Source: Betaproteobacteria bacterium RBG_16_58_11
GTDB lineage: Bacteria > Pseudomonadota > Gammaproteobacteria > Burkholderiales > Thiobacteraceae
Assembly (NCBI GenBank): GCA_001770235.1
Contig: MEQN01000147.1
Coordinates: 14,667 to 26,568 of the forward strand
Length of the DNA: 11,902 nucleotides
Direction: 5' to 3'
Shown here: piece after piece, positions 2,572 through 11,902 of the stretch
How the letters are laid out: the number at the start of each line of letters is the position of its first letter
Numbering within the stretch: position 1 is the stretch's first letter
The notes under the pieces: generated by a model
What the model was told of the DNA's origin: nothing
Databases searched by the model: none
What the model saw: the letters and a program-made list of their open reading frames with translations, nothing else
Translations under genes and position numbers: made by a program

Positions 2572-4947
2572 ATGAAGCTCAAGCTGCCGCGCACCATGCA
2601 AATGCGCATCATGCTGGCCATCGCCGTGCTGCAGATGATGGTGGTGGGCCTTTTTTCCATTTACTGGATCGTGCAGCAGGTAGGCGAGGAGTTGACCGGC
2701 CGCCAGGCGATCGCGCATAAGATTTTGTCGCTGACCGTACCCTCGGTCGAGCGCGCGCTCTTCCAGCAAACCCCGGAAGAATTGGCGCGTTATCTGCGCC
2801 GGGTGGTGTCTGACCCGCTGATCGGCGGTATCGTCATCAAGGATGCCACCGGCAAGACAGTATTCAATCAAGTCAAGCCGTTTGAGCCGGTGCATCCGGT
2901 GGCGAGCTGGTTCAAACTCTCGGCGCTGAAACAAGGGATGTCCACACAGCTCTGGCGCGATGGCGTGCCGCTGGGGGTGATGACGGTTCACCTGTCGAAC
3001 GGCCCGATCAACCAAGATATCAGCACGCTGTTGGAAAATGTAACCTACTTGTTGATGATCTTGCTTGTCTTCGACTTGATTGCGATCCAACTGTTGATTC
3101 GCTTCTTTGTCGCGCCATTGGGGCCGTTGACCGTGATGGCGCGGGAATTCACCCAAGGCAATCTCGATACCACCATCGCGCCGGCGGAAGGCGCCAGCGA
3201 GGAAGTGCGTCATCTCACCACGGCCTTTGTCGAATCGGCCAAAGTGATGCGGCAACAGATCGGGGATTTGGAAGTGACGCGCGGCCAACTGGCGAGCAAC
3301 GAATTGCGGCTGCGCAATTTGGTGAACAATATGCGCGAAGTACTGGTCGAGCTGGATCGCGCCGGCCAAATTTTGTTCATCAATCCGTCGTGGGAGAAGC
3401 TCACCGGCTATGCCATCGCCCATTGCCTGAACAAGCCATTTTCGCAATTCCTGGTGCAGCCACAACATCAGGCGAATTTCGTGTTCGGCCGGCTGGAGCA
3501 GTTGCACACCTACGACATGCAGATCGAAGTGCGCGCGCAGGACGGCCGCTCGGTATGGTTGCGCATGAGCGCCACCCGGCAATATGACGACAAGGGCGAA
3601 TTCACCGGCATTGTCAGCACGCTGGAAGATATCAGCGAAAATCTCAAGCTGCAGGAATCGCAGCGCGAACATGAGCAATCCTTGTATCGGCTGACCATCA
3701 CCGACCCGCTGACCGGTGTATACAACCGGCGTCATTTCGACGAAATGCTCGCCAATATGATGGCAATGACTTTGTCTAAAAGTCGTCAACTGGCGTTGCT
3801 GATCATTGATATCGACGGGTTCAAATTCATCAACGACACGTATGGCCACCCGGTGGGGGACGAGGTGTTGCGCACGGTGGCGGATCGGCTGACCACGGGT
3901 GCGCAAGGCGGAACGGTGGCGCGATTGGCGGGCGACGAGTTCGCGGTGGTGCTGCAAAACGTCAGGGAAGAGGAGGCGCAAGCAGCGGCGCGGCGCATCC
4001 ATCAGGAGTTGTCGGCCGTGGTGATTCATCTCGCGGTGGGCGAATTGCGGATCCAGACCTCGATCGGCGTGGCGCTGGCGCCGGCCTTCGGCAAGACCCC
4101 GCAGGATTTGGTGCGCGCCGCCGACGTGGCGCTGTATCACGCCAAAAAAAGCGGACGCAACCGGGTCGATACCTTGTCCAAGGATATGGGCGAGGCGATC
4201 ATGGATATCTTTTCCCAAGGCTTCGAGCTGCGCAACGCGCTCAACAACGGCATGATCGCCCCCTTTCTGCAGCCGATTTTCGATCTGCGAAAAAACGAGC
4301 TCATGGCCTACGAGGTGCTCACGCGCCTGAAGCGCGGCAAGGAATACGTGCCGGCCGACGAATTTGTGCTGATCGCCGAAGACTTGGGGCTGATCCGCGA
4401 AATGGACCTGTTCATTATCAACAAGGCCTTGAGTTCGGTGCCCAAAGGCGTGCACTTGTTCGTCAATATCAGCATGAATTCGCTCCTCGCGCCGGAGTTT
4501 CGCGAGGAATTCCTCAAGCTGCTGAAATCGCCGCTGGCGCAAGGCCGCCAGATCACCATCGAATTTACGGAGCGCCAGACCACCGACATGAGCGCCGATT
4601 TTTTCAAATTGCTGGAAGAAATACGCGCCGGCGGCTGCAAGATCGCCTTGGACGATTTCGGCGCCGGCTATTCCACCTACAGTTATTTGCGCCAGCTCAA
4701 GCCTGATTTCGTCAAGATCGACGGCAGCTTCGTGCAGCAAATACTCAATAATCCCCAGGACAATAAGATCGTCGAGCACATCCGCGAGCTGTCATCCGTG
4801 TTTGGCGCCCAATCCATCGCCGAGCATGTGGAAGACGCCAAGACCGTGGCGGCGCTGACCCGCATGGGCGTCGATTTCGCGCAAGGGTATTACTATGGCA
4901 AGCCCAAGCTGATCGAGGATTATGTGCGGATGGGAGCGACGATCTAG
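2572..4947 (+). CDS. Membrane-bound HAMP-PAS-GGDEF-EAL cyclic-di-GMP turnover protein
   Basis: The product has 791 residues. Domains in order are TM1 (about 12-34), a periplasmic sensor segment (35-155), TM2 (157-179), HAMP-like linker (180-235), PAS (about 243-355), GGDEF (about 373-535) and EAL (about 550-790). The GGDEF active loop is A453-G-D-E-F457; D413 and N421 with D430 are in place, so cyclase activity is plausible. The RxxD inhibitory site expected just before the loop is absent. In the EAL domain the signature reads EVL (E581), with N632, E664, D694-D695, K715, E751 and Q771 all present, so phosphodiesterase activity is likely. The protein probably senses a periplasmic or PAS-bound cue at the inner membrane and adjusts cyclic-di-GMP. 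The RBS (GAGTGGA) is weak. Which activity dominates cannot be read from sequence. Confidence 0.93.
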   Translation: MKLKLPRTMQMRIMLAIAVLQMMVVGLFSIYWIVQQVGEELTGRQAIAHKILSLTVPSVERALFQQTPEELARYLRRVVSDPLIGGIVIKDATGKTVFNQVKPFEPVHPVASWFKLSALKQGMSTQLWRDGVPLGVMTVHLSNGPINQDISTLLENVTYLLMILLVFDLIAIQLLIRFFVAPLGPLTVMAREFTQGNLDTTIAPAEGASEEVRHLTTAFVESAKVMRQQIGDLEVTRGQLASNELRLRNLVNNMREVLVELDRAGQILFINPSWEKLTGYAIAHCLNKPFSQFLVQPQHQANFVFGRLEQLHTYDMQIEVRAQDGRSVWLRMSATRQYDDKGEFTGIVSTLEDISENLKLQESQREHEQSLYRLTITDPLTGVYNRRHFDEMLANMMAMTLSKSRQLALLIIDIDGFKFINDTYGHPVGDEVLRTVADRLTTGAQGGTVARLAGDEFAVVLQNVREEEAQAAARRIHQELSAVVIHLAVGELRIQTSIGVALAPAFGKTPQDLVRAADVALYHAKKSGRNRVDTLSKDMGEAIMDIFSQGFELRNALNNGMIAPFLQPIFDLRKNELMAYEVLTRLKRGKEYVPADEFVLIAEDLGLIREMDLFIINKALSSVPKGVHLFVNISMNSLLAPEFREEFLKLLKSPLAQGRQITIEFTERQTTDMSADFFKLLEEIRAGGCKIALDDFGAGYSTYSYLRQLKPDFVKIDGSFVQQILNNPQDNKIVEHIRELSSVFGAQSIAEHVEDAKTVAALTRMGVDFAQGYYYGKPKLIEDYVRMGATI

Positions 4948-7055: not shown

Positions 7056-7693
7056 TGCAGCAGCGTTTTCGTTATATTGTGGTGGAAGGCCCGATCGGCG
7101 TCGGCAAGACCAGCTTGACGAAAAAGCTCGCCGATTTTTGGCAGGCCGACACGCTGCTGGAGGGGGCGGAGAACAATCCATTCCTGCCCAAGTTCTACCA
7201 GGACATGGAGCGTTTTGCCCTCGCCACGCAATTATTTTTCTTATTCCAGCGCGTGGAGCAGGTGCGGGGGTTGAAACAAGCCGACTTGTTCGGTCGGCCG
7301 ACGGTGGCGGATTTTATTCTGGATAAAGACCCCTTATTTGCGCGGCTCACGCTGTCTGACCAGGAGTTTCGCTTGTACCAGCAAATCTACGCGCACTTGC
7401 AGCCGCAAACCGCAGCGCCCGATCTGGTAATCTATCTCCAGGCGCCGGTCGAGGTACTGCATGAACGGGTGCGGCGGCGCGGGGTGAGTTATGAGCGGCC
7501 GATCAGCGAGGAGTACCTAGAGAAATTGGCGGAGAGCTACAGCCGTTATTTCTATCAATACGAGGCCTCGCCCTTACTGATCGTGAACAGCGAGAACTTG
7601 AATTTCGTGGACGATCCAAAAGATTTCGAGTTATTGATTTCCCGCATCGATAAAATGCGCGGCGGGCGCGAGTTCTTCAACCGGGGCGAGTGA
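7052..7693 (+). CDS. Deoxynucleoside kinase (deoxyadenosine/deoxyguanosine kinase family)
   Basis: The product has 213 residues. The P-loop is GPIGVGKTS (13-21). The substrate-site stretch [12 protein letters not shown] (40-51) and the [11 protein letters not shown] segment (91-101) are characteristic of the dNK/dGK family. An arginine-rich lid, [12 protein letters not shown] (139-150), closes over ATP. The enzyme phosphorylates deoxynucleosides for dNTP salvage in the cytoplasm; which base it prefers cannot be settled here. Translation is coupled on both sides: its ATG overlaps folK's stop (ATGA), and its TGA shares a base with panB's ATG (TGATG). A second ATG at 7055 is a possible alternative start. 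A dNK gene between folK and panB is absent from the E. coli cluster and, as I recall, common in Betaproteobacteria. Confidence 0.93.
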
Positions 7694-8484
7694 TGCGAAG
7701 CACGCTGACAACACTACAGAAAATGGCGCAGGCAGGCGAGAAAATCGCCGCGCTGACCTGTTACGACGCCAGCTTTGCCAAGCTGCTGGAAGCGGCCGGC
7801 GTGGATATCTTGCTCGTCGGTGATTCGCTCGGCATGGTGCTGCAAGGGCGCGAATCCACGCTACCAGTCACGCTCGCCGACATGATCTATCACACCGAAT
7901 GCGTGGCGCGCGGCTCCAGCCAAGCCTTTATCGTGGCCGACATGCCCTTCGGCAGCTACCAAAACAATCCGCAAGACGCCTTCCGCCATGCCAGCCAATT
8001 GATGCGCGCCGGTGCGCACATGGTCAAGCTGGAAGGTGGCCGCGCCATGGCGGAAACCGTGCGGTTTTTGGTCGAGCGTGGGGTGCCTGTCTTTGGCCAC
8101 TTAGGGCTGACGCCGCAATCCGTGCATCAATTGGGCGGCTATCGCGTGCAAGGCAAAACTGAGCAGGGTGCTGCGCAACTGAAAGCCGATGCCGCCGCCC
8201 TGGTGGAAGCCGGAATCAGCATGCTGCTGCTCGAATGCATTCCCGCTGAATTAGCGCGTGAAGTCACCGCCGCCATAGCCATTCCCACCATCGGCATCGG
8301 CGCCGGTGTCGATTGCTCCGGCCAAGTGCTGGTGCTGCACGACATGCTCGGCATCTACGGCAAGCCACCCAAATTCGCCAAGAATTTCATGGACGGTGCA
8401 GCGAGCATTCAACAAGCCGTGGAGCGCTATGCCGCCGAAGTGAAGGCCAAGCAGTTTCCCGCACCCGAACATTGTTTTAGCTAA
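7693..8484 (+). CDS. panB: 3-methyl-2-oxobutanoate hydroxymethyltransferase
   Basis: The product has 263 residues, normal for PanB. It adds a hydroxymethyl group from 5,10-methylene-tetrahydrofolate to alpha-ketoisovalerate to give ketopantoate, the first committed step of pantothenate synthesis. Seen in the sequence are [14 protein letters not shown] (20-33), [13 protein letters not shown] (40-52) with metal ligand D44, [10 protein letters not shown] (81-90) with D83, VKLEGG (111-116) with K112 and E114, [20 protein letters not shown] (135-154), and E181 (the likely base) before GIGAG (201-205). The ATG at 7693 is preferred, with GGGGCGAG just upstream as RBS. A GTG one codon earlier is the only alternative. 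The start shares one base with the dNK stop and the stop shares one base with panC's start. Confidence 0.97.
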
Positions 8485-9326
8485 TGGATGTGATTCATAC
8501 CATCGAGGCGCTGCAAGCGCGCCTTCGCACAGCCGGCCCGGTGGCTTTCGTGCCCACCATGGGCAATCTGCACGCGGGCCATTTGGCCTTAGTACGCAGC
8601 GCGCACGAACACGGCGATTGCGTGGTGGCGAGTATTTTCGTCAATCCCCTGCAATTCGGCCCGACGGAAGATTTTCAAACCTATCCGCGCACCCTGGATG
8701 CGGATTGCGCGCAGTTGAATGAAGCGGGTGCGGATGTGGTGTTCGCACCCAGCGTGGCGGAGATGTATCCCACTCCGCAGCAAGTCGAGATTGTTCCGCC
8801 GCCGATCGCCAGCGAACTTTGCGGCGCGTTCCGTCCGGGGCATTTTCAAGGCGTGACGACGGTGGTGGCGAAGCTGTTCAACATCGTGCAGCCGGCGGTG
8901 GCGGTGTTCGGCAAGAAAGATTTCCAGCAATTGTTCGTGATCCGCGCCATGGTGCGCGAACTGAATTTCCCGGTGCGTGTTATAGGCGCGGAAACCTTAC
9001 GCGCCGAGGATGGCTTGGCGCTCTCTTCGCGTAACGGATATTTATCTGCGCAGGATCGCCAGGAAGCGCCGCGCTTGTATCGCGCCTTGTGCAACATCGC
9101 CGACCAACTGAAGGCAGGGGCACGCGATTTTGCCGCACTGGAGGGAACCGCGCGCCAGGCGCTCGAATCCAATGGTTGGCGCGTGGATTATGTTTCGGTG
9201 CGTGATGCGAGCACCTTGCTGCCCCCAGTGGGCGAGTTAAATCAGTGCGTGATCCTCGGCGCAGCCTGGCTCGGCACGACGCGACTGATTGATAATATTG
9301 AAGTTTCCATAGCAGCGTTAATATGA
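8484..9326 (+). CDS. panC: Pantothenate synthetase (pantoate--beta-alanine ligase)
   Basis: The product has 280 residues, standard for PanC. It activates pantoate with ATP to pantoyl-adenylate and joins it to beta-alanine, which panD supplies. The family's nucleotidyl-transferase signatures are clear: FVPTMGNLHAGH (22-33) holds the HxGH motif (H30, H33), IFVNPLQFGPTEDFQTYPRT (51-70) contributes to the pantoate site, VFGKKDFQQ (141-149) follows, and LALSSRN (178-184) is the KMSKS-like loop. The ATG is in TAATG overlap with panB, so ribosomes probably re-initiate; no separate Shine-Dalgarno is evident. It is the last gene of the overlapping folK-dNK-panB-panC run. Repeats and a new promoter follow before panD. 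Confidence 0.97.
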   Translation: MDVIHTIEALQARLRTAGPVAFVPTMGNLHAGHLALVRSAHEHGDCVVASIFVNPLQFGPTEDFQTYPRTLDADCAQLNEAGADVVFAPSVAEMYPTPQQVEIVPPPIASELCGAFRPGHFQGVTTVVAKLFNIVQPAVAVFGKKDFQQLFVIRAMVRELNFPVRVIGAETLRAEDGLALSSRNGYLSAQDRQEAPRLYRALCNIADQLKAGARDFAALEGTARQALESNGWRVDYVSVRDASTLLPPVGELNQCVILGAAWLGTTRLIDNIEVSIAALI

Positions 9327-9347
9327 AACTCGCGCAGCGAGCCTGCG

Positions 9348-9388
9348 TCCCTCTCTCCCGCTTGCGGGAGAGAGCTAGGAGAGAGGGA
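9348..9388. repeat. CTCTCCC/GGGAGAG palindromic repeat after panC
   Basis: CTCTCTCCCGC (9351-9361) pairs perfectly with GCGGGAGAGAG (9364-9374). Alternatively TCCCTCTCTCC (9348-9358) pairs with GGAGAGAGGGA (9378-9388), so one left arm has two possible right arms. A small CTCGC-GCA-GCGAG hairpin (9329-9341) sits just before it. It begins about 20 bases after the panC stop and may serve as the operon's transcript end. It resembles a CCCTCTCCC...GGGAGAGGG intergenic repeat that I recall as common in proteobacteria. Confidence 0.8.
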
Positions 9389-9442
9389 AACGGTCATGGC
9401 GAATATCGTTTTTCGATGCAGCCAGCCTTTGCCATGACCGTT
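9389..9442. repeat. 12-bp inverted repeat overlapping the panD promoter
   Basis: AACGGTCATGGC (9389-9400) and GCCATGACCGTT (9431-9442) are perfect reverse complements 42 bases apart, start to start, close to four helical turns. The right arm covers the end of the panD -35 box and part of the spacer. It could be a cruciform/REP-like remnant or a pair of operator sites. The arms are not internally palindromic, so each would bind one protomer. Confidence 0.6.
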
Positions 9443-9456
9443 GGGGCCGGTATAAT
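9429..9456 (+). promoter_or_regulatory. Strong sigma-70 promoter of panD
   Basis: TTGCCA (9429-9434) matches the -35 consensus at 5 of 6 positions. TATAAT (9451-9456) is a perfect -10. The spacer is 16 bases, and transcription should start near 9463, about 24 bases before the panD ATG. panD therefore has its own promoter despite following panC. Confidence 0.75.
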
Positions 9457-9486
9457 GAGCGCCTTTTTCGCACGAGGATAAAACTC

Positions 9487-9867
9487 ATGCAAAGAACCAT
9501 GCTCAAATCCAAGTTGCACCGGGTGCATGTCACGCACTCGGAGTTGCACTATGAGGGTTCTTGCGCCATCGATGAGACCCTGCTGGACGCCGCCGACATC
9601 CGCGAGTACCAGCAAATCGAAATTTACAACGTCACCAACGGCGAGCGTTTCACGACCTATGCGATTCGTGCCGAGCGCGATTCGGGCATCATCTCGGTCA
9701 ATGGCGCCGCCGCGCATAAAGCCAATCCGGGCGATATCGTGATCATCGCCACCTATGCGGTGTACAACGAGATCGAGCTGCAAAAATATGCGCCGGTGCT
9801 GGTTTATGTGGACGAGGCGAATCGGATTATTGGCCAGCGCGACAAGATTCCGGTGCAGATGGCATAA
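9487..9867 (+). CDS. panD: Aspartate 1-decarboxylase proenzyme
   Basis: The product has 126 residues, the length of the E. coli enzyme. It decarboxylates aspartate to beta-alanine, the second substrate of PanC. The self-cleavage site G24-S25 in YEGSCAID is intact. Cleavage there turns S25 into the catalytic pyruvoyl group. Other family stretches are [17 protein letters not shown] (9-25), [14 protein letters not shown] (47-60, with the substrate-binding region around R54-Y58), [12 protein letters not shown] (69-80) and [11 protein letters not shown] (81-91). A clear Shine-Dalgarno, GAGGA (9474-9478), lies 8 bases before the ATG. The gene is separated from panC by 160 bases with repeats and its own promoter, and is followed by a strong terminator, so it is probably a single-gene transcript. 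Confidence 0.97.
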
Positions 9868-9974: not shown

Positions 9975-11902
9975 TCAAGCCGTCGCCTGATATAAGTACT
10001 TCTGGAAGCCGGAAAATACCCTGCCAATCTCCTCCGGCTTGCCAAGATCGGCCACCGCATCGGCGATGGAATCGTGATACTTCAAGCGCAGCAGCGGCGT
10101 CAGCTTTGCCTGGTCGAGTTCTTCCACGCCAACGCTGACGTAGTGCGACAACACGAAATCAAGAAAGGTCTGTTGCTTGCTGTTGAAATGGGTATTGATG
10201 CGTGTCATTGCTTGGGTAGCGCGCGCTTCGCGCGTGAGCGGGGCCAGGGCATAAGCCACATTGGCCAGCACGTCGAACAGGTCGCTTTTCTCCGCGTCGA
10301 TGATCTTCTGCATTTCATGAAGTTGATCCTTGCCGAAGCCTTTTTCAGCGAGTCCATCCAATAGCTTCCTGCGCGTATCCGGCGCGCTCCACAAGGCGCG
10401 TAGCTCTTCCTCATCCTGGAAGAATTCTGGCAGTTTGCCGAACAGCGCTTCCATGAACTGCTGCGCCGACATGGGCGTGCCGTCCGGGTGCCAGAAGCTG
10501 GTCACCATCATGTGCTGAATGGTGCGCGCCTTGCCGTCGGCGAGTTTGACTTTGATTTTCTGCCGCTTTTGATATTCCGCCGTGGGTTCTTGTACCTCGG
10601 CGGGCGCACGTGGATCGGGAGTTGGCCAAGTTTCCTTTGGCTCCGGCTCCATCGGCTCGCCATCCCACTCCGGGTCGCTGAAATGATGGTGCGCCTTCAC
10701 GAAATCGTAAATCGTGAAGTAATCCTTGCCATCATAGAGCCGCGTGCCACGTCCGATGATCTGCTTGAACTCGATCATCGAATTGATCGGCCGCAGCAAA
10801 ACGATGTTGCGCACGTTGCGGGCATCCACGCCGGTCGAGAGTTTCTGCGAGGTGGTCAGGATGGTCGGGATGGACTTCTCGTTGTCCTGAAAATCGCGCA
10901 GGTATTGCTCGCCCAAAGCGCCATCATCGGCGGTGACCCGCTGGCAGTAATTAGGATCGGTGCTGCTCTTCATCTGGTTGATCAGATCGCGGATCACCAG
11001 CGCGTGCGCTTGGTTCGCACAGAACACCAGCGTCTTCTCTCGTTGGTCGATCTGCGACATTAAAATTTCGCCCCGTTTCTTCTCGCGCGCCTTGATCTCG
11101 ATGATCCTGTTGAAGTCAGCTTCTTCGTAGCGCTTGCCCGCCTCGATCTCGCCCTCGACCAGCGTGTCGTCGGGCGTATAGACATACTCGTCCAGCGTCG
11201 TGGCAATCTGCTTCACCCGGAACGGCGTCAGGAAGCCATCGTTGATGCCATCCTTGAGCGAATAGATAAACACCGGCTCGCCGAAATAAGCGTAGGTATC
11301 CACGTTGTCGCGGCGCTTGGGCGTAGCGGTCAGGCCAAGCTGCACGGCGGGGGCAAAGTAATCGAGAATGTCGCGCCAGTTGCTCTCGTCGTTGGCGCCG
11401 CCGCGATGGCACTCGTCGATAACGATGAAGTCGAAGAAGTCCGGTGGATACTCGCCGAAATACCCTTCGACAGGCTCAGGGGCCGATGTGCTTTTGGACA
11501 ATGACCTAAGCAAATCAGTATTGCCGGTAATCAATGCAACTTTCTTTGCTCTGCTCCATCCCTGAATCTGTTTTTCTCTCGCAAAAGCAACATCTATCCG
11601 ATCATGCGATTCGCAATAAACCAGCTTTACTGGCGCATGAATTTTCGTGTGCTTTGCACCTTCCCCATTTCGATGTTGGTCAAGACGCAGTTTTAGATCA
11701 ACTGTGCTTCCAGTATAAAAGCTGCCATCTGCACATTCCAAAATATACGTGTAGGCATGGCCATCCTTTATCTCACCGATCTCTTTAAGGCTGGTCTTGA
11801 TCGAATTATCTGCATCGGTGGCTGAGCCTGCCGAAGCATCGGTGGCTGAGCCTGCCGAAGCATCGGTGGCTGAGCCTGCCGAAGCATCGGTGGCTGAGCC
11901 TG
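9975..11902 (-). CDS. hsdR: Type I restriction subunit R (EcoEI type) with in-frame GIY-YIG insertion; 5' end outside window
   Basis: An open frame runs 641 codons from the window edge to TGA at 9975-9977. Residues here count from the edge. Residues 1-46 are 8-residue repeats and linker, 49-136 a GIY-YIG nuclease domain, 137-146 a linker ending APEPVEG, and 147-641 an HsdR helicase and C-terminal region. The HsdR part starts YFGEYPPDFFDF and carries Walker B D162-E-C-H165, T191-A-T (motif III), TLVFC (290-294), STGVDA (355-360) and QIIGRGTRL (380-388), then an EcoEI_R_C-like tail. HsdR is the ATP-driven translocase and nuclease of type I restriction complexes. The N-terminal nuclease and Walker A must lie beyond the window. 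Related HsdR proteins, as I recall them, run directly into PYFGEYPPDFFDF with no GIY-YIG domain. Whether the composite works is unknown; no stop or frameshift is seen. Confidence 0.9.
   Translation of the reverse strand, partial: GSATDASAGSATDASAGSATDASAGSATDADNSIKTSLKEIGEIKDGHAYTYILECADGSFYTGSTVDLKLRLDQHRNGEGAKHTKIHAPVKLVYCESHDRIDVAFAREKQIQGWSRAKKVALITGNTDLLRSLSKSTSAPEPVEGYFGEYPPDFFDFIVIDECHRGGANDESNWRDILDYFAPAVQLGLTATPKRRDNVDTYAYFGEPVFIYSLKDGINDGFLTPFRVKQIATTLDEYVYTPDDTLVEGEIEAGKRYEEADFNRIIEIKAREKKRGEILMSQIDQREKTLVFCANQAHALVIRDLINQMKSSTDPNYCQRVTADDGALGEQYLRDFQDNEKSIPTILTTSQKLSTGVDARNVRNIVLLRPINSMIEFKQIIGRGTRLYDGKDYFTIYDFVKAHHHFSDPEWDGEPMEPEPKETWPTPDPRAPAEVQEPTAEYQKRQKIKVKLADGKARTIQHMMVTSFWHPDGTPMSAQQFMEALFGKLPEFFQDEEELRALWSAPDTRRKLLDGLAEKGFGKDQLHEMQKIIDAEKSDLFDVLANVAYALAPLTREARATQAMTRINTHFNSKQQTFLDFVLSHYVSVGVEELDQAKLTPLLRLKYHDSIADAVADLGKPEEIGRVFSGFQKYLYQATA
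11465..11479 (+). repeat. CTTCGACAGGCTCAG element at the HsdR-side boundary
   Basis: CTTCGACAGGCTCAG, set in a CCCTTCGACAGGCTCAGGGG context, lies exactly between the GIY-YIG domain and the first HsdR residues, and encodes the PEPVEG end of the linker on the minus strand. I recognise it as a very common short proteobacterial repeat. It matches 14 of 15 positions of the inverted copies at 11822-11836, 11846-11860 and 11870-11884. Confidence 0.8.
11812..11902. repeat. 24-nt identical tandem array encoding an 8-residue repeat (runs off the window)
   Basis: Three identical 24-nt units (11812-11835, 11836-11859, 11860-11883) and 19 bases of a fourth (11884-11902) are present with no mismatch. Each contains CTGAGCCTGCCGAAG. 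On the minus strand the array reads GSATDASA per unit, in frame with the nuclease and HsdR, so copy-number change leaves the frame intact. Perfect identity suggests recent or ongoing expansion. The window ends inside the array. Confidence 0.95.

Follow-up and report, generated by a model that had tools for sequence, protein, structure and literature searches.

A GIY-YIG nuclease frame between short DNA hairpins inside a type I restriction gene, a good candidate for a type of mobile element that has been overlooked

What is a GIY-YIG nuclease domain doing, in frame, in the middle of a type I restriction HsdR gene? The question is raised by the minus strand of a stretch of 11,902 nucleotides from Betaproteobacteria bacterium RBG_16_58_11 (contig MEQN01000147.1; G000:C147:14667-26568 in our numbering), hereafter the window. 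The preliminary description of this stretch had proposed that a mobile, nuclease-bearing element sits in a permissive loop of HsdR, where it is tolerated as an additional domain and does not splice; the empty sister alleles, mosaic breakpoint and younger insert reported below support this. Probably, a mobile cassette of a GIY-YIG frame and hairpin repeats was captured once by hsdR and has been spreading between alleles in a homing-like manner, without splicing. This reading draws on an in-frame position at a single site, on hairpin ends that are conserved and covary at the DNA level, on intact nuclease and HsdR motifs, and on the comparison of occupied with empty alleles. The insert may well belong to a kind of mobile element that has been overlooked.

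The in-frame insert and its recurrence in one HsdR loop

The reading of open frames gave no stop on the minus strand from 11900 to 9975, and the resulting frame of 641 residues leads from a 24-bp tandem array through a GIY-YIG domain into the C-terminal half of an EcoEI-type HsdR, as the preliminary description had stated and Pfam agreed. The HsdR half (9975..11462) holds YFGEYPPDFFDF, DECH (Walker B), the helicase motifs, EcoEI_R_C and the stop; Pfam placed ResIII, Helicase_C and EcoEI_R_C, in this order, after the GIY-YIG domain. The part of the insert lying in the window covers 11463..11902 and runs on past 11902 into an assembly gap of 18 Ns. Within it, the (ASAGSATD)n repeats are followed by the GIY-YIG domain and by the TGAGCCTGTCGAA hairpin, after which HsdR resumes with YFGEYPPDFFDF. 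The left array (11812..11902) consists of 3.8 copies of the 24-bp unit with 100% match, a count that applies to the part visible in the assembly, and carries the hairpin core TTCGGCAGGCTCAG at 11822-11835, 11846-11859 and 11870-11883. The nuclease domain (PF01541, 11541..11756, residues 49-120, E 8e-16) scored above the cut-off and has the Tyr, Tyr, Arg and Glu that we take to be its catalytic residues. The right hairpin repeat CCCCTGAGCCTGTCGAAGGG, translated PEPVEG, lies at 11463..11482 (core 11466-11479) and shows synonymous-site conservation in relatives. All these features are on the minus strand, and the core matched four times in the window against a mean of 0.17 in shuffled sequences.

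The insert had been described as poorer in GC than its surroundings (about 44% against 58%) and devoid of a usable start codon. The measured values were 44.5% for 11464-11811 against 56.9% and 60.3% for the C- and N-terminal halves of HsdR, and in its frame no ATG, GTG or TTG comes before a TTG at 11741, which already lies within the GIY-YIG domain; a start codon belonging to the insert is thus lacking ahead of that domain. Alignment with the uninterrupted relative G002, which reads FQTFM-SGPPIDGKPSP-YFGEYP, fixed the HsdR junction at 11462/11463, and the passage from GIY-YIG to the HsdR C-terminal half is free of gaps. The loop of G002 confirms the short loop that the preliminary description gave as normal for EcoEI-type HsdR; in empty relatives it mostly has at most 11 residues, and the closest solved HsdR (3h1t) is likewise short at the aligned place.

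Does the rest of HsdR lie upstream? The contig continues for about 3.2 kb past the window and there encodes an HsdR N-terminal half in the same frame, with GTGKT (Walker A), Pfam matches to ResIII and DEAD, and a stretch that we take to be PD-ExK-like from its invariant D52, E66 and K68. This part of the expectation stood. In this assembly, the series from the PD-ExK-like stretch and Walker A to DECH, helicase C and EcoEI_R_C is read in one frame across the 18 Ns (4570-4587 of locus L002, where window position equals locus coordinate plus 7333), which fall directly between '...GSIFFT' and the repeats and leave frame continuity unproven here, a first point against our reading. An assembly artefact or chimeric contig would account for this gap and for the Ns that also interrupt the tandem array of G487, but it is hardly credible in view of the gap-free occupied alleles of G005, G001 and G740 and of many further database records. 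G005 and G001, two congeners with 96% and 94% identity over a query of 173 residues, read 'FFTIFQTFM-ASAGSATD/E...' without a gap and thereby settle the architecture. Both the occupied G005 and the empty G002 have hsdM and hsdS close to hsdR; neither gene was seen on the contig of the window, which ends about 2.3 kb past the hsdR start.

We then asked how often this arrangement recurs. A protein search with residues 40-150 of the 641-residue frame, restricted to targets 0.55-1.75 times as long as that frame, yielded 286 matches. Among the best 120 of these, all 120 carried PF01541 together with HsdR domains, under source names that include Hydrogenophilales, Gallionella, Desulfuromonadales, Verrucomicrobia, Latescibacterota, Anaerolineae and Aequorivita. 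A script located both landmarks in 117 of the 120 (P0081, P0097 and P0116 were missed), and all 117 showed hairpin-type peptides on both sides of the GIY-YIG domain in the same loop, so that the insertion point is common to at least 117 database proteins. On the left the peptides were ASAGSATG, SGGSTSSPTA, STGSATG, SGPSTGSGT and variants; on the right PEPVEG, AEPVEA and variants, followed by FGxY (117/117). These patterns are loose, with chance rates of 2.6% (left) and 3.8% (right) per 40-residue window. Upstream, FFTxFQ or LFTxFQ was visible in 112 of the located proteins, and an additional placing count covered 110 of the 120. At the nucleotide level, genome contigs were scanned with 16 GIY domains and the best 80 of 565 loci kept; a script scored 22 of these as HsdR-fused, which with L030, cut off before DECH, makes 23 fused and 57 standalone loci. 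Across 369 genomes of the class, the full query matched in the source genome (G000) only; the remaining HsdR-type matches aligned via the HsdR part and their loops were not read there. Among plasmids and phages no record covered at least 80% of the 173-residue GIY-HsdR query.

The closest solved relatives of the domain are the UPF0213 proteins BH0048 (1zg2, 107 residues, E 1e-17) and EF2693 (1ywl, 96 residues, E 1e-13), short chains without an HsdR part, by which the window GIY-YIG appears Slx1-like and not of the UvrC or homing-endonuclease lineage. A GIY tree of 144 rows (a random 45 of the 120 proteins, the 80 loci, the window and the pattern-extractable part of 29 class loci) gathered the 68 HsdR-lodged rows in one clade with support 95, with the 76 standalone rows one change away. 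Because the lodged domains form one clade, a single capture by HsdR suffices among the rows sampled, and many independent captures were ruled out. Standalone GIY-YIG genes would be the source of the cassette, a direction that is inferred since the root of the tree is a midpoint. An in-frame nuclease insert in a conserved ATPase, at the same site in many hosts, could likewise be an intein or mini-intein whose homing domain is of the GIY-YIG type. Inteins are followed by Cys, Ser or Thr. Here, however, the residue after the insert is Tyr and the Pfam scans found no Hint or other splicing domain at E 0.001; for want of a splicing domain we ruled out this very improbable alternative.

Hairpin ends kept as DNA

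The left and right peptides proved to be in-frame readings of TTCGACARGCTCA and of its reverse complement, the ends of the insert carrying the core pair TTCGACARGCTCA / TGAGCYTGTCGAA. Thus, the 8-residue repeats are translations of a hairpin resembling repetitive extragenic palindromes (REPs) that brackets the GIY-YIG frame on both sides. The core was found within two mismatches on both sides in 22 of the 23 fused loci, against about 0.5% per side in shuffled sequences. Codons at the ends were nearly invariant (TCG 27/27, ACA 20/21, TCA 27/27, GAG 22/22, GTC 17/17, GAA 21/22), while the same residues elsewhere in these open reading frames use those codons in 16-64% of cases (TCG and TCA 16% each), which indicates that the ends are conserved as DNA hairpins and not as protein. 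In the first hairpin class (class A; 134 unique hairpins, 47 loci), stem positions 1-3 were paired in 96, 93 and 91% of cases, with shuffled maxima of 71, 51 and 53%, and covaried with all four Watson-Crick types. A second class (TTCGRCYNCGCTCA, class B; 84 hairpins, 23 loci), seen among the standalone loci L029-L108, was paired at positions 1-4 in 98, 92, 96 and 85%, with shuffled maxima of 85, 62, 67 and 64%. Like REPs, the hairpins are short, have covarying stems and are dispersed, and in genomes rich in them several inverted pairs lie about 20-40 bp apart. The right hairpin repeat can also be amplified: in L253 (G487:C1), at least 14 tandem copies, (VPEPVA)n, lie within HsdR, in an array that is interrupted midway by Ns.

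Around the 57 standalone GIY-YIG genes, class A counted 41 hairpins in 80 kb of near sequence and 21 in 404 kb of far sequence (about 10-fold denser), and class B, present in 21 of the 57 loci, 72 near and 18 far (about 20-fold); reversed-pattern controls around the same genes gave no match. Either class lay within 600 bp of the gene in 33 of the 57. In a hand-chosen panel of 30 genomes (15 by hairpin content and 15 others), in which part of the GIY and Y1-transposase matches were read, hairpins occurred within 1.5 kb of 5 of 30 GIY loci, the window being one of the five, against 0 of 30 Y1 loci, and a RAYT-driven REP was ruled out on this count. The exact core was missing from 238 of the 369 class genomes and reached 20-96 copies in 11. 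The association of hairpins with GIY-YIG genes is good but not complete, because most hairpin-rich genomes had no hairpins at the GIY loci read; G116, G258, G286 and G341, for instance, have 42-96 cores each and no repeat-flanked GIY among those loci. A wider proposal, which we consider possible though somewhat short of an even chance, is that these GIY-YIGs are the dedicated enzymes of an undescribed hairpin-repeat superfamily (cores TTCGACARGCTCA and TTCGRCYNCGCTCA) in a role like that of RAYTs for GTAG REPs, one lineage having become a translated, non-splicing homing element fixed on a single HsdR loop in several phyla and so living like an intein without being one.

Some GIY-YIG domains stand at the N terminus of quite other proteins, fused to CbiG, GHMP kinase, adenosine deaminase or TsaE-like parts (P0262, P0285, P0293, P0286, P0304, P0300, P0303). 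A linker check on 33 of 110 GIY-related proteins found a hairpin-type linker peptide in six (P0262, P0293, P0290, P0300, P0336, P0268); the pattern was not matched in the rest of the 33, including the GHMP kinase rows, so that of the named fusions only P0262, P0293 and P0300 show it. GIY frames that read into the starts of other genes fit a cassette that often has no stop.

The HsdR loop itself receives other palindromes. In an order-level sample (399 genomes, 54 with matches, 30 loci fetched, 27 run, 24 loops readable, 25 with the source genome), 17 loops were empty, five contained GIY-YIG (G000, G001, G005, G487, G740) and three other inserts. At the DNA level, G676 has a decayed hairpin doublet without GIY-YIG, and G422 (L254) and G414 (L255) have in-frame doublets of a dRS3/CGTC-like palindrome, also without it; P0160 is likewise by its peptide. 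Database loops were read in 103 + 118 retained rows of at least 300 residues (P0131 was lost). Judged by peptide, hairpin doublets that lack GIY-YIG and differ in frame or orientation occurred in P0144, P0145, P0165, P0175, P0180, P0208, P0220 and P0232, and Nitrotoga HsdR proteins show loop doublets 'ASAGSATGPAAVPEPVEG', seen as peptides only. The loop accepts the GIY cassette, TTCGAC-type and CGTC-like doublets and is therefore a natural insertion-tolerant site in HsdR, one where palindromic repeats in general appear to land.

These palindromes without a nuclease, together with the repeat-rich genomes devoid of a repeat-flanked GIY among the loci read, favour the chief alternative to our reading: the loop tolerates palindromes, GIY-YIG hitchhikes as a passive passenger and the occupied allele spreads by ordinary recombination, with no role for the nuclease. 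We give this explanation a minor but real chance. It does not readily account for the state of the nuclease, whose Tyr3, Tyr13, Arg23 and Glu60 (alignment numbering) are kept in 116-117 of 117 HsdR-lodged relatives, for the dN/dS of the insert (nonsynonymous to synonymous divergence, 0.14-0.27), which points to purifying selection, or for the fact that hairpins cluster at GIY-YIG genes but are missing from the Y1-transposase loci read.

Occupied and empty alleles

Is the GIY-YIG domain instead a working part of HsdR? The preliminary description suggested that it may have been domesticated as a second nuclease, for example to cut structures made by the translocating motor. Such a role would suit the single clade, its occurrence in several phyla, the purifying selection, the missing start codon and the intact HsdR motifs (among 85 full-length fused proteins, GTGKT in 84, DECH in 84, TATP in 85, GRGTR in 85 and, by a pattern of our own, PD-ExK-like residues in 70). 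Against it, only four of the 120 closest HsdRs listed have the insert (8000 candidates scored), sisters a few percent apart lack it, its ends are kept as DNA and not as protein, and the genealogy of the GIY-YIG domain is largely decoupled from that of HsdR. Domestication is therefore no longer the leading interpretation, and we consider it unlikely. An HsdR tree of 222 rows, 107 with GIY-YIG, required at least eight changes of state; its rows were picked partly by GIY and partly by HsdR similarity, so that these proportions are not frequencies. Five occupied rows had a GIY-less sister with supports of 97-99 and path lengths of 0.015-0.092 (occupied/empty: window/P0121, P0042/P0200, P0011/P0223, P0219/P0210, P0001/P0127). 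In the 88 fused proteins that were long enough, of 200 rows, GIY-YIG identity correlated at 0.32 with the C-terminal and 0.19 with the N-terminal part of HsdR, against 0.70 between the HsdR halves. The sister pairs and this weak correlation ruled out a vertically inherited domain. P0002 illustrates the decoupling, with 96.5% identity to the window protein in GIY-YIG and 81-83% in HsdR.

The nucleotide comparison of the window gene with its nearest relatives was in line with this. Over the first 600 bp to the right of the insert, the window hsdR was 94-98% identical to the empty G002 and 76-91% to the occupied G005, whereas in the nearest 100 bp to the left it was 96% identical to G005 and 78% to G002. 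The window gene and G005 thus share a short tract to the left of the insert, their similarity breaks at the right edge of the insert, and the window hsdR is a mosaic with its breakpoint there. Synonymous divergence (dS) of the insert was 0.109 between the window and G005, 0.139 between the window and G001 and 0.187 between G005 and G001. In the flanks it was 0.22 (nearest 60 codons on the left), 0.44, 0.72 and 0.80 for the window and G005, 0.66-1.98 for the window and G001, and 0.80-2.76 for G005 and G001. In the comparisons with the window, dS of the insert was thus 2-14 times below that of the flanking hsdR, indicating an insert younger than the allele backbones. Taken together, the empty sister alleles, the mosaic breakpoint and the younger insert indicate that the insert is mobile.

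How it moves can be pictured as follows. An Slx1-like GIY-YIG frame bracketed by REP-like hairpins would form a mobile cassette, which one in-frame capture would have placed in the variable loop that separates Walker A from Walker B in an EcoEI-type HsdR; there it would be translated as a part of HsdR and tolerated as an extra domain. Its spread across phyla, from occupied to empty hsdR alleles, may most simply be explained by homing-like gene conversion, in which the nuclease made within HsdR would cut empty hsdR DNA or a hairpin or cruciform and repair would copy the cassette from the occupied allele. The TTCGACAGGCTCA hairpin is a predicted candidate substrate of the nuclease, HsdR is predicted to stay active with the insert, and homing may be active. 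As with homing endonucleases, empty and occupied alleles are present at the same site. Co-conversion of flanks agrees with the dS values and the mosaic of the window, G005 and G002; G001 shares no flank and the sister pairs have no gradient.

Several observations weigh against this homing-like spread of a cassette. That the GIY-YIG enzyme cuts hairpins or the empty loop and so drives the spread is itself a prediction, and the same mosaics could arise if hsdR alleles simply underwent ordinary homologous recombination with one another. The mosaic evidence comes from four genomes and from 8-13 synonymous changes in the insert. Further to the left, the window gene differed little in its identity to G005 and G002 (88/85, 94/91, 89/89 and 89/84%), and the occupied G001, with 94% identity in the insert and 85% to its right, had only 74% in the left flank next to it. 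Protein-level windows in the sister pairs revealed no clear gradient towards the insert. The correlation of 0.32 between GIY-YIG and the HsdR C-terminal part was reached by none of 999 permutations, so part of the spread is joint, and the trees were built by FastTree and contain many weak deep branches. As for the hairpins, positions 4-5 of class A paired slightly and positions 6-8 not clearly above shuffles, and 24 of the 57 standalone genes had neither class within 600 bp. Of the 11 genomes with at least 20 copies, only three (G137, G047, G121) showed hairpins at those GIY loci that were read (1-2 loci per genome); G116, with 92 copies, had no A1-like GIY match; and the source genome had two cores in the 369-genome count, with only one other perfect core.

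Relation to known elements and neighbouring genes

Homing endonucleases of the GIY-YIG class are free-standing or reside in introns and inteins. They share with the window insert a nuclease gene at a conserved site, sporadic and younger than the host sequence. The differences are that the insert has no intein domain, appears Slx1-like and showed no NUMOD in the Pfam scan, and that its homing is only inferred.

The preliminary description knew of no described case; a precedent does exist. A paper of 2006 (PMC1564403), as far as its accessible part goes, reports a GIY-YIG domain at about position 800 of the HsdR protein MCA0838 of Methylococcus capsulatus and an empty homologue in Deinococcus geothermalis, calls the insertion unique, suggests that it is recent and asks whether further GIY-YIG members are molecular parasites. 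Both cases have an Slx1-like GIY-YIG inside a type I HsdR and an empty close homologue. However, the window insert lies at a different position, after residue 270 or so, and that part of the paper mentions neither hairpin ends nor a recurrence of the insert nor its passage from allele to allele; MCA0838 is known to us by its description and not by its sequence. In-frame palindromes in protein genes, often as dimers and often in DNA-processing genes, are known from Rickettsia palindromic elements and other intragenic REPs (PMC10969869, PMC3733652); the accessible text of these sources describes no nuclease between repeats, whereas here a GIY-YIG frame lies between hairpins. With REPIN-RAYT systems (PMC3116915, PMC2817692, in part) the hairpins have in common that they are short and dispersed, that some form close inverted pairs and that copies flank an enzyme gene. 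They differ in the enzyme, a GIY-YIG and not a Y1 transposase, in a core without GTAG and in their absence from the 30 Y1 loci.

According to the available part of PMC3733652, stems of CGTC REPs begin with AT and their tails fit CCA, the other superfamily is tagged by GTAG, and some REP families, a statement made for the CGTC REPs, have no known mobilising enzyme. Compared with these descriptions only, the core fits neither of the named families, which were accordingly set aside. Among the papers listed by the literature searches, with subscription journals and preprints mostly outside their reach, none linked GIY-YIG to REP-type or hairpin repeats. A nuclease travelling with a hairpin family is a concrete and testable candidate for a mobiliser other than RAYT. 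If our reading is true, toleration as an extra domain is all that a selfish nuclease needs to persist in a defence enzyme.

Upstream of hsdR, Pfam recognised a Bro-N protein, a DUF4411/PIN protein and an IrrE-like peptidase as neighbours. The PIN-type DUF4411 protein stands beside the peptidase (L002 6573-7722, minus strand), and the two resemble a toxin-antitoxin or defence pair. Directly past the hsdR stop and convergent with hsdR, window positions 7690-9867 hold ordinary-looking genes that, from their translations, we take to be panB, panC and a panD-like gene.

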